A stretch of 33,336 nucleotides of DNA, taken from NCBI GenBank assembly GCA_013360465.1, contig JABWBO010000067.1:1-33336 (forward strand), given 5' to 3'. The notes under the pieces were generated by a model. It did no database searches. It was not told where the DNA came from and saw only the letters and a list, made by a program, of their open reading frames with translations. This DNA is from Anaerolineae bacterium (GTDB lineage Bacteria; Chloroflexota; Anaerolineae; Aggregatilineales; Phototrophicaceae). The first letter of the stretch is position 1. Every line of letters starts with the position of its first letter. Both the position numbers and the translations under genes were made by a program. This document shows, in pieces, positions 11,127 through 21,900 of this stretch.

Positions 11127-14039
11127 ATGCGCTCGAAACGGAACCGCGTTCGCGACATGGCGCTGTGGGCGGCGATCCTGCTGACGGCGCTCCTGGCTGC
11201 GGCGTGCGCCCCCCAGCCGACCCTCGAACTCCGCGCCGCCGCCTCGGCGCAGCGCCCGCCCCAGGACCCGACGGCGAGCCTGCCAGACCAGCCCAGCATC
11301 GAAATCTCCGCCGACTCCCTGGGTCTGCCGCTCGCCCAGGATGAGACCGCCCACCAGTACGCCGGGGGCAGCATCCTGCTTCAGCGGGGTGACAGCCTGC
11401 ATTTCGAAGTCGAAATCCCCGCCGACGGCGAATTCACCCTCGCCTTCGACCTCGCCGCGCCTGCCGGGTCATCACCTCCCGAAGGTCAGATGCGCGTCGA
11501 TGGGGAATTCCCCGTTCGTGATTTCCAGCGGCTCCTCTTCCCGATCTTCTTCCGCAGCGCCGACTCCACGTTCACGCAGGATCGCTACGGCAACGATGCG
11601 CTCATCCGTCAGGTGCGCGATGTGCGATGGTCGAACGCCGCCGCGCGCGATGTCAACTTCAGCCAGCCCTATCCGCTTCGGCTCAATCTTTCCGCCGGGC
11701 TGCACCGCTTCGACTTCACGCTGACCGAAGGCGCGCTCTACCTCGGCACGATCACGCTTCAGCCGTTCGTGCCCTACCCCGACTATGCCCACTATCTGGC
11801 ATCGCAGACTGGGCAGGAGTCGTCCGGCTTCCTGCTCGCCCTCGAAGCGGAACTGCCTTCCTACAAGAACAATACGTCCGTGCGCCCCGCCGGCAGCCGC
11901 AGCCTGACCGTCACCCCCTATGACACGTACCGGCTGCTGCTGAACACGCTGGGAGGCGACAGCTGGATCAAGAGCGGCAGCGCAGCGTACTACGAGTTCG
12001 AGGTCCCGCAGGACGGACTGTACGCGATCACCCTGCGCGCCCTGCAGAACACCCGCAGCGGTTTCACCGTCTTCCGCCGCATCACGGTCAACGGCGAGGT
12101 CCCCTTCGCGGAATTCAACGCCATCCCCTTCGCCTATTCGGCGGACTGGGTGGACGCAGCGCTCGGCGGCGAGACGCCTTACCGGGTCTTTCTGCATCAG
12201 GGCGTCAACATCCTGGGCGTCGAGGCGACCAACGCGCCCTACCTGCCCGCTATCGAGACGATTCAGGCTGCGCTGCTCGACATCAACGCCCTGGCGCTGG
12301 AGATTCGCCGGCTGACCGGCAACCAGCGCGACCCGTTCAAAGAGTGGGTCATCTCCGACTACATCCCCGACGTTCAGGAGCGGCTGAACGGCATCGCCCA
12401 GCGGCTCATCGATGATCAGGCAACGCTGACGGCAATCGACCCCAGCGGCGCGTCGCCCGAAGTGCTGACGTATCAGATGGCGATAGACAACCTGCTCTTC
12501 CTGGCATCCGACCCGGACAAGATTCCGGTCTACATGAGCCGGTTTTCGGAAGGGGCAGGGTCGGCGGCGCAGCAGCTTGGCTCGCTCCTGCCGCTGCTGC
12601 AAAATCAGCCGCTCGCCCTGGACCGGATCGCCATCCATTCGCCCGAAGTCGTGCCGATCACCTCCGGCGCGCCGTTCCTCACCGCCCTGTCTGAAGACCT
12701 CAAGCGCTTCGCCCAGTCCTTCCAGCCCGACCCCTATCGGACGATTGGCGCGAGCGACGACGAGCTGGAGGTGTGGGTCAACCGTTCCCGGCAGTACGTG
12801 AACCTGCTTCAGCAGATGGCGGACGCGACGTTCACGCCGCAGACGGGGATTCGCGTCAAGTTCTCCATCATGCCCGACGAGGCGAAACTGATCCTCGCCA
12901 ACGCCGCCGACATTCAGCCCGATGTGGCGCTGGGCGTCAGCACCGACCGACCCTATGAACTCGCCATTCGCAACGCCCTCTACGATCTGCGCGCCTTCGA
13001 CGACTTCGACTCCTTCATCCACGTCTTCGCGCCCGGCGCGCTCCTGGGCTACATCATCAACGACTCGGTCTATGCGCTGCCTGAAACGCAGGACTGCTGG
13101 CTGACCTTCTACCGCGCCGACATCCTCGATGCGCTGGGGATGTCCGTGCCGAGTACCTGGGGCGAAGTCATCGAGATTCTGCCGGAACTCCAGCGCTCCG
13201 GCATGAACTTCAACGCCCCGCTGTCGGTCGGTGCCGGGCAGCGGAACTACATCTTCACCGCGCCCTACCTCTTCAACTATGGAGCGCCGCTCTACAGCGA
13301 AGGCGGGTTTGCCACCGGCTTGCAGAGCGAAGAAGCCATCGCCGGCGTGCGGTTCATGGCGGAAAGCTTCACCCTCTACGGGATGCCCCTGACCACCGCC
13401 AGCTTCTTCCAGGACTTTCGTTATGGCACACTGCCGATCGGCGTCTCCAACATCATCGACACCTATGTCAAGCTGGTGACCGCCGCCCCGGAAGTCGGCG
13501 GACTCTGGAACATTGCCCCGTTCCCAGCGACCGTGCTGGCGGACGGCACAGAGAACCGCTATGCCACCGGTTCGGCGCAGACCAGCATCATGTTCGCGAA
13601 CACCGATCAACCGGAAGAAGGCTGGGAATTCCTGAAGTGGTGGCTCTCGACCGAAACACAGGCGGCGTTTCAGGAACAGATCGTCCTGAACTACGGACTC
13701 GAATACCTGTGGTTTTCAGCCAACCTGGAAGCGTTCAGCCGGCTGGATATCCCGGATGAACACAAGGCGGTCATCCTGGATCAGTGGGCGTGGCTGCAAG
13801 AGCCGGTGCGCCTGCCCGGCAGCTACATGCAGGAACGTGAGCTGAGCAATGTCTGGAACCGCATCGTGTTCGACGGCGTGAACCCCCGCGTGGCAATTGA
13901 CCGCTCCGTCATCACCATCAACCGCGAAATCGCCCGCAAAATGGAGGAATTCGGCTTCCTGGTGGACGGTCAGCAGGTGCGCGACCTGACCATCCCGACG
14001 ATTGCGACCGTGCAGGGGTGGATTGACAATGTCGATTAG
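11127..14039 (+). CDS. Giant solute-binding lipoprotein with N-terminal carbohydrate-binding-like modules
   Basis: The 970-residue protein starts at [10 protein letters not shown] (11127), with GGAG 8 bases upstream; the longer frame from 11007 begins in a MITE. A lipoprotein signal ends at LAAAC (Cys27). Residues about 60-220 and 237-375 look like two beta-sandwich modules; the second starts [12 protein letters not shown] and resembles carbohydrate-binding modules. A helical linker follows to about 530. The last 430 residues form a family 1 solute-binding domain ([38 protein letters not shown]). Ordinary sugar-binding proteins are about 420-450 residues, so this is more than double. It overlaps the next permease by 11 bases. 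It may capture long or cyclic glucan at the membrane surface. The combination is seen in large carbohydrate operons of other bacteria, without a defined function that I know of. Confidence 0.82.
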
Positions 14040-14940
14040 ACGATCCTTCCAGCACTGGCTGAAGAAAGAAGGCAGCGCCTATGCCTTCCTGTCGTTCTAC
14101 GGCATCCTGTTCATCGTCTTCATCGTCGTGCCGGTCCTGGCGGCGTTCCTGCTGTCGTTCACCTTCTTCGACGCCATCCAGGCTCCCCGCTTCCTGGGGC
14201 TGGATAACTACATCTCGCTGATCACCCAGGACGATACATTCATGAAGTACGTCCTGCCCAATACCATCCAGTTCGCGGTGATCGTCGGTCCCGGCGGCTA
14301 CGCCTTCGCCTTCATGCTGGCGTGGGTGCTGGCGCAGCTCCCCAAGCTGCCCCGGACGATCTTCGCCCTCATCCTCTACTCGCCTTCGATGACGGCGGGC
14401 GTGGCGATGGCGGTCGTCTGGAAGGCGCTCTTCAGCGGCGACCAGACCGGTTATCTGAACGCCTTCTTGATGGGGATGGGTCTTCTGCAGGAGCCGATCC
14501 AATGGCTGCAATCGCCGCAGTACCTCATGACCATCATGATCATCGTCTCGCTGTGGAGCAGCATGGGCATCGGCTTTCTGGCGATGCTGGCGGGCATCCT
14601 GGAGATCAGCCCGGAGCTGTACGAAGCCGCCGCGATGGACGGGATGAGCAGCCGGTGGCAGGAGATCTTCTACATCACCATCCCCTCGATGAAGCCGCAG
14701 ATGCTCTTCGGGGCGGTCATGTCCATCGTCGGCGCATTCCAGGCGGGGTCGATCGGCGTGACGCTTTCGGGCAGCAACCCTACCCCGCAGTACGCCGGAC
14801 AGCTGATCGTCAACCACATCGAGGATTACGGCTTCCTGCGCTACGAGATGGGCTACGCCGCCGCTGTCTCGGTGGTCCTGCTGCTGATGGTGCTGTTCTT
14901 CACCCGCCTGGCGACCCGTCTGTTCGGCAGCGAGAGGTGA
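14029..14940 (+). CDS. Sugar ABC transporter permease, MalF type (pair 1)
   Basis: This 303-residue protein starts at [10 protein letters not shown] (14029), inside the final codons of the binding lipoprotein, so translation is coupled. About six membrane segments are visible, the first being [20 protein letters not shown]. The cytoplasmic EAA loop that contacts the ATPase is [19 protein letters not shown] with ITIPSMKP. The partner permease starts 7 bases after its stop. It belongs to the binding-protein-dependent transport inner-membrane family for oligosaccharides. Confidence 0.93.
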
Positions 14941-14947
14941 ATGCTCG

Positions 14948-20955: not shown

Positions 20956-20958
20956 AGG

Positions 20959-21900
20959 ATGCAGCAGGTCCTCCATCACCCCATCATCGAGCGCCTGCGC
21001 GGGCTGCTGTTCGGCAGCCGTGCCCGTCGCGGGCTGACCTTCACCGCCGCCCTGTACGCGCTGCTCATCGCCATCGGCTTCGTCTACCTGCAGCCCCTCC
21101 TCTTCATGTTCATCACCAGCATCAAAAGCCCGAACGACCTGCTCAACCCGATGGTCCAGTGGGTCCCGACCGAGCTTTACCTGGGCAACTACCTCAAGGC
21201 GTACCGGGTGCTGGATTACCCCAACACGCTGGTGACATCGGTCCTGATCAGCATGACGCCGTCGCTGCTGCAAACCGCCGTCGCCTCGCTGGTCGGCTAT
21301 GGACTGGCGCGCTACCGCTTCTGGGGCAAGCCGCTGATCTTCGCGCTGCTCCTCGCCACCTTCATCATCCCGCCGCAGAACACGGTCATTCCGCAAATGC
21401 TGACTTATCGCGACCTGGGGCTGCTGGGGAACCCGCTGGCGCTCATCCTGCCGGCGCTGATGGGACAGGGTTTCAGAAGCGCCATCTTCGTGCTGATCTT
21501 CTACCAGAGCTTCATCTCGCTGCCCAAAGTGCTGGAAGAATCAGCGCGGCTGGATGGCGCGTCAGACCTGCGCATCTTCTTCACCATCGCCGTGCCGTCT
21601 GCGCTGCCGGCATACATCGTCTCGTTCATCTTCTCCACCGTCTGGTACTGGAACGAGACCTTTCTGACCGCCATCTTCCTGGAGGGCGGCGTGACCACCC
21701 TGCCGATGCAGCTGTCGCGCTTCACCCAGGCGTACGAAAACCTCTACCCACCGGGGACGGTCAACATCTTCGATCGGCTTAATGAAGCGGTGAAGATGAG
21801 CGGCACATTCCTGAACATCCTGCCGCTGCTGGTGATCTATTTCGTCCTCCAGCGCTGGTTCGTCGAATCAGTGGAGATGACCGGCATCACCGGCGAGTGA
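20959..21900 (+). CDS. Carbohydrate ABC transporter permease, MalG type (pair 2)
   Basis: The 313-residue protein has membrane helices beginning LTFTAALYALLIAIGFVYL. The conserved loop reads VLEESARLDGASDLRIFFTI followed by AVPSALPAY; the usual EAA is ESA here. It closes the transporter operon. A 10-bp inverted repeat that overlaps its stop codon probably ends the transcript. The second pair means the operon carries two complete permease heterodimers, with only one binding protein inside the overlapping run. Confidence 0.92.
   Translation: MQQVLHHPIIERLRGLLFGSRARRGLTFTAALYALLIAIGFVYLQPLLFMFITSIKSPNDLLNPMVQWVPTELYLGNYLKAYRVLDYPNTLVTSVLISMTPSLLQTAVASLVGYGLARYRFWGKPLIFALLLATFIIPPQNTVIPQMLTYRDLGLLGNPLALILPALMGQGFRSAIFVLIFYQSFISLPKVLEESARLDGASDLRIFFTIAVPSALPAYIVSFIFSTVWYWNETFLTAIFLEGGVTTLPMQLSRFTQAYENLYPPGTVNIFDRLNEAVKMSGTFLNILPLLVIYFVLQRWFVESVEMTGITGE

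Follow-up and report, generated by a model that had tools for sequence, protein, structure and literature searches.

A conserved gene module with two sugar permease pairs, a giant binding protein, and DUF5696 and NHL-TPR-Yip1 proteins in Chloroflexota and Bacilli

Gene organisation of the locus

The DNA analysed here (hereafter the window) is a stretch of 33,336 nucleotides from an Anaerolineae bacterium (Chloroflexota; Phototrophicaceae), namely positions 1 to 33,336 of the forward strand of contig JABWBO010000067.1 in assembly GCA_013360465.1, and it carries a compact operon of genes resembling those of sugar ATP-binding cassette (ABC) importers. A sequence-only reading of this DNA had singled out seven touching, codirectional genes at 11127-21900, comprising a giant binding lipoprotein, two MalF/MalG permease pairs, an NHL-TPR-Yip1 protein and a DUF5696 protein, and both the coordinates and Pfam bear this out, with the TPR_2 match of the NHL-TPR-Yip1 protein falling below the Pfam cut-off (22.3 vs 27 bits). 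All seven genes are real, but that reading overlooked a plain solute-binding protein (SBP) gene, which stands directly upstream of the giant SBP gene in 47 of the 66 complete loci described below. Open reading frames (ORFs) were called by longest start without a gene finder, and the genes of the module are the following:

9078-10514, plus strand: plain SBP, ORF of 478 residues, true start probably nearer 9168; SBP_bac_1 (1e-20)
11127-14039, plus strand: giant binding lipoprotein (giant SBP), 970 residues, lipobox LAAAC; SBP_bac_8 (7.7e-17) in the C-terminal half only
14029-14940, plus strand: F1, MalF-like permease, 303 residues
14948-15853, plus strand: G1, MalG-like permease, 301 residues
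15850-17859, plus strand: NHL-TPR-Yip1 protein, 669 residues; Yip1 (2.2e-10), NHL (8.1e-8)
17852-20074, plus strand: DUF5696 protein, 740 residues; PF18952 (4.6e-161), N-terminal signal or anchor
20071-20955, plus strand: F2, second MalF-like permease, 294 residues
20959-21900, plus strand: G2, second MalG-like permease, 313 residues

The overlaps of 4 to 11 bases that had been reported are present at the giant SBP/F1 (11 bases), G1/NHL-TPR-Yip1 (4 bases, ATGA), NHL-TPR-Yip1/DUF5696 (8 bases) and DUF5696/F2 (4 bases) junctions, and small gaps separate F1 from G1 (7 bases) and F2 from G2 (3 bases). The DUF5696 gene is single copy in the source genome.

Conservation of the module across genomes

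The genomes were surveyed in sets holding one genome per species, and the first pass scored only the best few candidates of each genome, 4 to 6 in the Bacilli surveys; queries A2 and A3 contain the Cohnella locus from the genome that served as centre. A DUF5696 score above 200 bits defined 87 loci, or 83 once four exact duplicates were dropped, and the 66 with at least 7 kb upstream and at least 2.5 kb downstream were treated as complete: 21 from near Chloroflexota (the window included), 13 from distant Chloroflexota, 29 from Bacilli, two from Erysipelotrichaceae and one from Butyrivibrio. The parts of the seven-gene unit, scored as eight with NHL and Yip1 taken apart, and using component models built from matches in those same loci, were all present on the same strand in 66/66 distinct complete loci. 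Since the arrangement recurs in every one of them it is not a product of chance, and a chance grouping or a single-genome artefact is thereby ruled out. Gene order was constant across the locus listings with the sole exception of L101, whose listing is blurred by an over-long ORF start, and the same order is seen in the NCBI annotation of plasmid records of Paenibacillus cellulosilyticus and Butyrivibrio fibrisolvens.

Among 400 Chloroflexota genomes, 46 matched DUF5696 at E 0.001; the family cut-off was reached in 33 of them and a score above 300 bits in 29, and in the other 17 no single DUF5696 piece scores above 48 bits (at most 95.5 bits together with same-frame neighbours). An NHL-Yip1 match lies directly upstream of DUF5696 in 29/29 of the strong genomes, counting G294, where the contig begins inside the gene and the Yip1 part alone is visible (59.9 bits). 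The NHL query matches 243 of the 400 genomes at E 0.001, and the matches listed score no more than 55 bits and are generic NHL repeats, bar G308, the sole other strong NHL-Yip1 match (120 bits), which is cut by the contig end behind giant SBP, F1 and G1.

Of 200 Bacilli genomes, 16 have DUF5696 above 100 bits (in G573 as two pieces), and the same 16 have both NHL-Yip1 at 118 bits or more and a giant-SBP match with E of at most 1e-40, while the other 184 gave no DUF5696, NHL-Yip1 or giant-SBP match at those thresholds. The next NHL-Yip1 match listed reaches 60 bits and consists of NHL repeats only; at E 0.001 the query matches 48/200 genomes, and among the matches listed nearly all are generic NHL repeats. 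The expectation of the sequence-only reading, that a gene-neighbourhood survey would find DUF5696 and NHL-Yip1 genes consistently alongside the giant binding protein, is thus supported both by the complete loci and by these 16 genomes.

One Cohnella genome (G402) holds five complete modules (L170, L178, L181, L183 and L184). A contig assigned to a metagenome-assembled genome of the cyanobacterium Pleurocapsa minor carries a whole Chloroflexota-type module (L066) with 65% DUF5696 identity, and is perhaps a misbinned contig or a transfer. Two metagenome-assembled genomes of Erysipelotrichaceae (G400 and G401) each have one Chloroflexota-type module accompanied by GH94 (L078 and L080) plus a second, divergent copy, a situation that may point to transfer between phyla.

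Permease pairs and binding proteins

All four permeases have the BPD_transp_1 domain (Pfam) with intact EAA motifs, the acid and glycine of which are kept in every sequence of all four permease alignments. In trees that included further permeases of these stretches for comparison (11 for F, 10 for G), F1, F2, G1 and G2 each form one clade of their own over the 66 loci (supports 0.78, 1.0, 0.99 and 0.997, respectively), and therefore the two pairs were probably already distinct in the ancestor of the modules.

The giant SBP was modelled with AlphaFold from 19 sequences (predicted local distance difference test, pLDDT, of 63). In the model, two beta-sandwich domains (about residues 55-216, and 233-370 plus a strand near 496-507) are followed by a helical stretch and then by the SBP domain at about 540-940. 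Both sandwiches match the CBM35/CBM6 families of carbohydrate-binding modules (CBMs), with Z up to 14 and a root-mean-square deviation (rmsd) of 2.1-2.4 over about 120 residues, and two carbohydrate-binding domains are accordingly predicted on this protein. The nearest fold match of the SBP domain is the beta-1,2-glucooligosaccharide-binding structure 5ysd (2.0e-6), followed closely by sulfoquinovosyl-, cycloisomaltooligosaccharide- and further sugar-binding proteins, several of them within an order of magnitude. By sequence, MalE3 comes first (1.1e-9) and Lin1841 second (5.8e-9). The sophorooligosaccharide-binding Lin1841 of Listeria innocua (PDB 5ysb and 5ysd) is therefore among the nearest solved SBPs in both sequence and fold, but it differs in being a plain SBP with 18% identity, whose solved chain of 397 residues has no CBM domains. 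The description of the giant protein as a lipoprotein holds for the window, whereas a crude lipobox motif was seen in just 16 of the 66 giant SBPs.

The plain SBP shows 63% identity to PDB 22hh (266/423, counted on the printed midline). The printed fragments of 22hh, one of five PDB entries (22hh-22hl), are in turn 99.6% identical over 284 residues to the SBP of the L088 module. In the Cohnella locus L082 and in both plasmid records the plain SBP genes lie downstream instead.

Partial correlations of pairwise distances were calculated over the 47 loci with a plain SBP directly upstream, and since the pairs are not independent the values serve as hints only. They were 0.53 for F1-G1, 0.50 for plain SBP-G2, 0.49 for NHL-DUF5696, 0.37 for Yip1-DUF5696, 0.31 for Yip1-G1 and 0.30 for F2-G2. 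That the two strongest values join F1 to G1 and the plain SBP to G2 would suit two ordinary ABC importers sharing one operon and one pathway, for instance one for long and one for short oligosaccharides, with DUF5696 and NHL-TPR-Yip1 helping one of them and no joint assembly. The presence of two SBPs and the intact EAA motifs of both permease pairs are in keeping with such an arrangement, as is the finding that all four permeases match several NCBIfam equivalog models of ordinary sugar permeases, albeit weakly and below the cut-offs. However, none of the 66 loci has lost either pair or either accessory protein, including those in whose vicinity a plain SBP was not found, and this exceeds what a shared pathway would need; we regard two independent importers as a possible explanation, though short of a probable one.

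The DUF5696 protein has a predicted glycosidase-like fold

Both accessory proteins had been presented as having no defined function, but DUF5696 is not featureless, since it proves to be a relative of the GH129 glycosidases. Among the families listed by the structure searches, its model (23 sequences, pLDDT 70.6, predicted template modelling score 0.77) matches GH129 5opq in Foldseek (1.2e-24) and by superposition (Z 24.2, rmsd 4.2, 545 residues), 5wzq similarly (Z 24.1) and GH101 less well (Z about 16). Over almost the entire chain the predicted fold is of the GH129 type, with a beta-sandwich, a TIM barrel and a C-terminal beta domain. When the query is the window family alone, the sequence search reaches ZgGH129 only at E about 0.007; the homology to the GH129 enzymes (NagBb, 5wzn; ZgGH129, 5opq) is distant and runs through bridge proteins. 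These are five other Chloroflexota proteins (L113-L117) that match DUF5696, four of which also match the GH129 model PF11308 and one of which matches NagBb at 1.3e-24, and a profile alignment of DUF5696 with all five extends over the full length with probability 100. The module is missing from all five loci, in which DUF5696 is weak, although genes of the ordinary importer type lie close by in L114 and L116, and the proteins perhaps form a separate glycosidase group. The window protein itself gave no PF11308 match at E 0.01. A PF11308 search of 121 Chloroflexota genomes gave 0 matches, but its controls were silent too and matches exist outside that set, so it shows no absence.

The catalytic positions were then compared in an alignment of 70 DUF5696 sequences, which contains duplicates. 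NagBb D435 corresponds to D526 in A1 numbering (position 533 in the 740-residue ORF); with a register uncertain by one, this position is Asp in the window, in 37/70 sequences overall and in 30/30 near-Chloroflexota, Arg in 14 (Bacilli) and Gly in five, among them four Erysipelotrichaceae rows. The second position, read from the alignment, corresponds to the NagBb acid/base residue E478, and here the window protein has no acid at 564-567. Both GH129 acids coincide strictly in 1/70 sequences, and in 11/70 if a slip of one residue is allowed, the ten slip-dependent rows being all from Bacilli (L167-L169 and L171-L177, one a duplicate). ZgGH129 D486 has likewise been equated with NagBb D435, the second NagBb catalytic residue not being conserved there, and the ZgGH129 homologs have been proposed as a family apart (PMC5698469).

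As the GH129 catalytic pair is not kept, DUF5696 is probably not a standard glycosidase, and we consider it a probable pseudo-glycosidase, with residual doubt. Assignment to family GH129 itself was rejected, since a defining residue and the family model PF11308 both failed. Some conserved site nevertheless remains, as D208 and N614 (70/70) and D535, W418 and Y570 (69/70) are nearly invariant. One could propose that DUF5696 is an active surface glycosidase which trims the substrate before import, with NHL-TPR-Yip1 as a mere tether. The near-whole-chain fold, the nucleophile-equivalent D526 kept throughout the near-Chloroflexota, the ten Bacilli rows that gain both acids by a one-residue slip, and D208 and D535, which could serve some other chemistry, would all fit. 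Against it stand the missing acid/base in the window protein, the rarity of the full pair in the alignment, the replacement of D526 by Arg or Gly in Bacilli and Erysipelotrichaceae and the silence of PF11308 on the window protein, and we think an active enzyme unlikely.

A 21-nucleotide, partly palindromic repeat, GACCCGGCGGGTCGCCCCTAC, occurs at window positions 17900-17920, 10546-10566 and 1795-1815, and has 37 copies in the genome with at most two mismatches (none for the reversed control). The copy at 17900-17920 sits within the DUF5696 ORF, in the signal-peptide region, and a relative with 95% identity, L061, has a few additional residues at this position.

The NHL-TPR-Yip1 protein

The hydropathy profile of the NHL-TPR-Yip1 protein shows a signal peptide, a hydrophobic segment near 422-440 and a Yip1 part with five hydrophobic segments, from which the NHL propeller and TPR are predicted to lie outside the cell. 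Both the Yip1 family and NHL repeats are recognised domains, and generic NHL repeats are common, but strong matches to the NHL-Yip1 fusion or pair were found only with this module in the searched genomes. NHL and Yip1 form one ORF in 38/66 loci and two in 28/66, one of the latter (L077) possibly through a frameshift. From this architecture we infer a scaffold or hub, for which the partial correlations of NHL and of Yip1 with DUF5696 given above also count as hints.

An external propeller and TPR joined to a membrane part could also signal, and a histidine kinase and a response regulator adjoin the Butyrivibrio module, so that NHL-TPR-Yip1 and DUF5696 might be conceived as a sensor of surface glycans controlling the importer or its expression rather than as a scaffold. 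Yet Pfam recognised no cytoplasmic signalling domain in the NHL-TPR-Yip1 protein, NHL and Yip1 are separate ORFs in the 28 loci just mentioned and the window locus already has a LacI regulator; we find a sensor highly improbable.

Neighbouring genes and putative cargo

Upstream of the module, the window holds the following genes:

1831-4143, minus strand: GH35 enzyme, cargo enzyme closest to IaSGT; GH35 (7e-38)
4140-5393, minus strand: GH144-like enzyme, probable beta-1,2-glucanase, cargo enzyme; PF10091 (5.4e-64)
5371-6525, minus strand: LacI-type regulator, neighbour
6601-8985, plus strand: GH94 phosphorylase, cargo enzyme; GH94 (1.5e-110)

The best PDB match of the PF10091 enzyme is 8xul (8.3e-40), XCC2207, which is the GH144 enzyme XcSGL, and the GH35 enzyme is nearest to the beta-1,2-glucosyltransferase IaSGT (7vkw; 233 bits, the next other enzyme scoring 170). 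Because the neighbours are GH144-like, GH35 and GH94 enzymes with a LacI regulator, all assigned by homology, the cargo at this locus is most likely beta-1,2-glucan fragments. The same three enzyme kinds (GH144, GH94 and the GH35 IaSGT) stand together with an ABC transporter in a beta-1,2-glucan cluster of Ignavibacterium album, for which the published passages on the cluster name neither a second permease pair nor DUF5696 or Yip1, and the authors speculate on a TonB-dependent first step (PMC8861115). A beta-1,2-glucanase from Chloroflexus aurantiacus has been used in another study (PMC12102758).

The proposal of glucan uptake thus agrees with the enzymes beside the window module but does not extend to all loci. 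Of the 124 flank proteins, 115 were scanned. GH94 lies upstream in 22 listed loci (20 after removal of duplicates), and neighbours at other loci include GH38, GH43 (Butyrivibrio fibrisolvens) and flavin oxidoreductases (Paenibacillus cellulosilyticus). With such different neighbours elsewhere, a beta-1,2-glucan link at all loci was ruled out, and since the neighbours vary between loci the module looks like a platform with varied cargo.

Proposed mechanism and comparison with known importers

Sugar importers of the CUT1 type, such as MalEFGK2 and MsmEFGK, usually combine a single binding protein with a single permease pair and an ATPase. The module shares with them MalF/MalG-like permeases with the EAA motif and SBPs of the SBP_bac_1/8 kind, but unlike them it has two permease pairs, a giant CBM-bearing SBP, an NHL-TPR-Yip1 protein and a DUF5696 protein, in an operon without an ATPase. 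We see it as a variant of the CUT1 sugar ABC importer for which we found no description in the open-access literature, in agreement with the earlier view of an undescribed unit. DUF5696 was not mentioned in the open-access literature searched, outside of which most subscription papers lie, and nothing relevant there, judged by title and abstract start, links Yip1 to such sugar importers.

Taken together, we consider it moderately probable that this is a conserved CUT1-type module with a CBM-bearing SBP, DUF5696, an NHL-TPR-Yip1 scaffold, a shared ATPase and varied cargo. In such a module the CBM-bearing giant SBP and DUF5696 would hold long oligosaccharides outside the cell, and the NHL propeller and TPR, anchored by Yip1, would act as a scaffold keeping DUF5696 and the binding protein beside the permeases. 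The giant SBP would feed mainly F1/G1 and the plain SBP mainly F2/G2, with both pairs driven by a shared ATPase of the MalK/MsmX type encoded elsewhere. In the source genome the imported beta-1,2-glucan fragments would be processed by the GH144-like, GH94 and GH35 enzymes, and in other bacteria the same platform may serve other glycans.

As for the ATPase, three OB_MalK matches above cut-off are present in the source genome on other contigs, two of them close together on one contig, and in Paenibacillus cellulosilyticus ugpC lies directly beside the module. The ATPase gene at 31065-31952 of the window adjoins ABC-2 permease, NosD and NosZ-like genes.

Several observations weigh against the model of a shared-ATPase platform with a scaffold. 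The operon lacks an ATPase gene, and both permease pairs could be separate importers. The proposed pairing of SBPs with permeases does not follow neatly from the correlations, given that the giant SBP fits F1 (0.33) and G2 (0.34) about equally and G1 less (0.18), and that the value for plain SBP-F2 (-0.10) is unfit for a pairing of the plain SBP with F2/G2. A plain SBP is not directly upstream in 19/66 loci, including all 13 distant Chloroflexota loci, where a search with a purpose-built model found none nearby. Eight flank proteins of the distant Chloroflexota loci were inspected singly, and most of them have housekeeping roles (FtsK, RNase J, RelA/SpoT, a tRNA ligase and a radical-SAM protein), the others being a polysaccharide deacetylase, an AnmK/beta-lactamase-like protein and a protein that matched nothing. 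Finally, the giant-SBP model is middling (pLDDT 63) and poor in its SBP part, and the pLDDT of the DUF5696 model falls below 50 next to the presumed active site, at 529-540 and 565-590, so that the catalytic placements rest on sequence alignment.

A physical association of all the parts in a single assembly, as the sequence-only reading suggested, would be plausible. In its strongest form this would be one surface machine, with two permease pairs around an NHL-TPR-Yip1 hub and with the giant SBP and the pseudo-glycosidase DUF5696 threading or presenting long glycans, an idea that we put forward tentatively and hold to be somewhat doubtful. If true, the single-machine design would let in polymers of a size that an ordinary importer could not handle. 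In any case, two permease pairs and two poorly understood proteins are kept together across Chloroflexota, Bacilli, Erysipelotrichaceae and rumen Butyrivibrio; the DUF5696 and NHL-Yip1 proteins hereby gain a testable job, and the module suggests how bacteria may import large glycans and is, for Chloroflexota, a candidate system of beta-1,2-glucan uptake.

Other features of the window

The plus-strand ORFs called upstream at 1636-6477 were rejected as genes, as they have no Pfam match and the real genes are on the minus strand. An Rfam scan of the window gave no match above threshold, and promoter and terminator scans found site numbers no higher than in shuffles. Downstream of the module lies an alpha-amylase family gene (23611-24954, minus strand), and the sugar locus is adjoined by a nitrous oxide reductase-type cluster (24923-33336) of two Crp-type regulators, a NosZ-like protein, NosD, an ABC ATPase and an ABC-2 permease. 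At the other end of the window, the ORF at 135-1655 has an FGE-sulfatase (formylglycine-generating-like) domain (2.8e-41), and relatives of it (76-84 bits) are found directly upstream of the giant SBP in one group of distant Chloroflexota loci (L104-L108 and L111).

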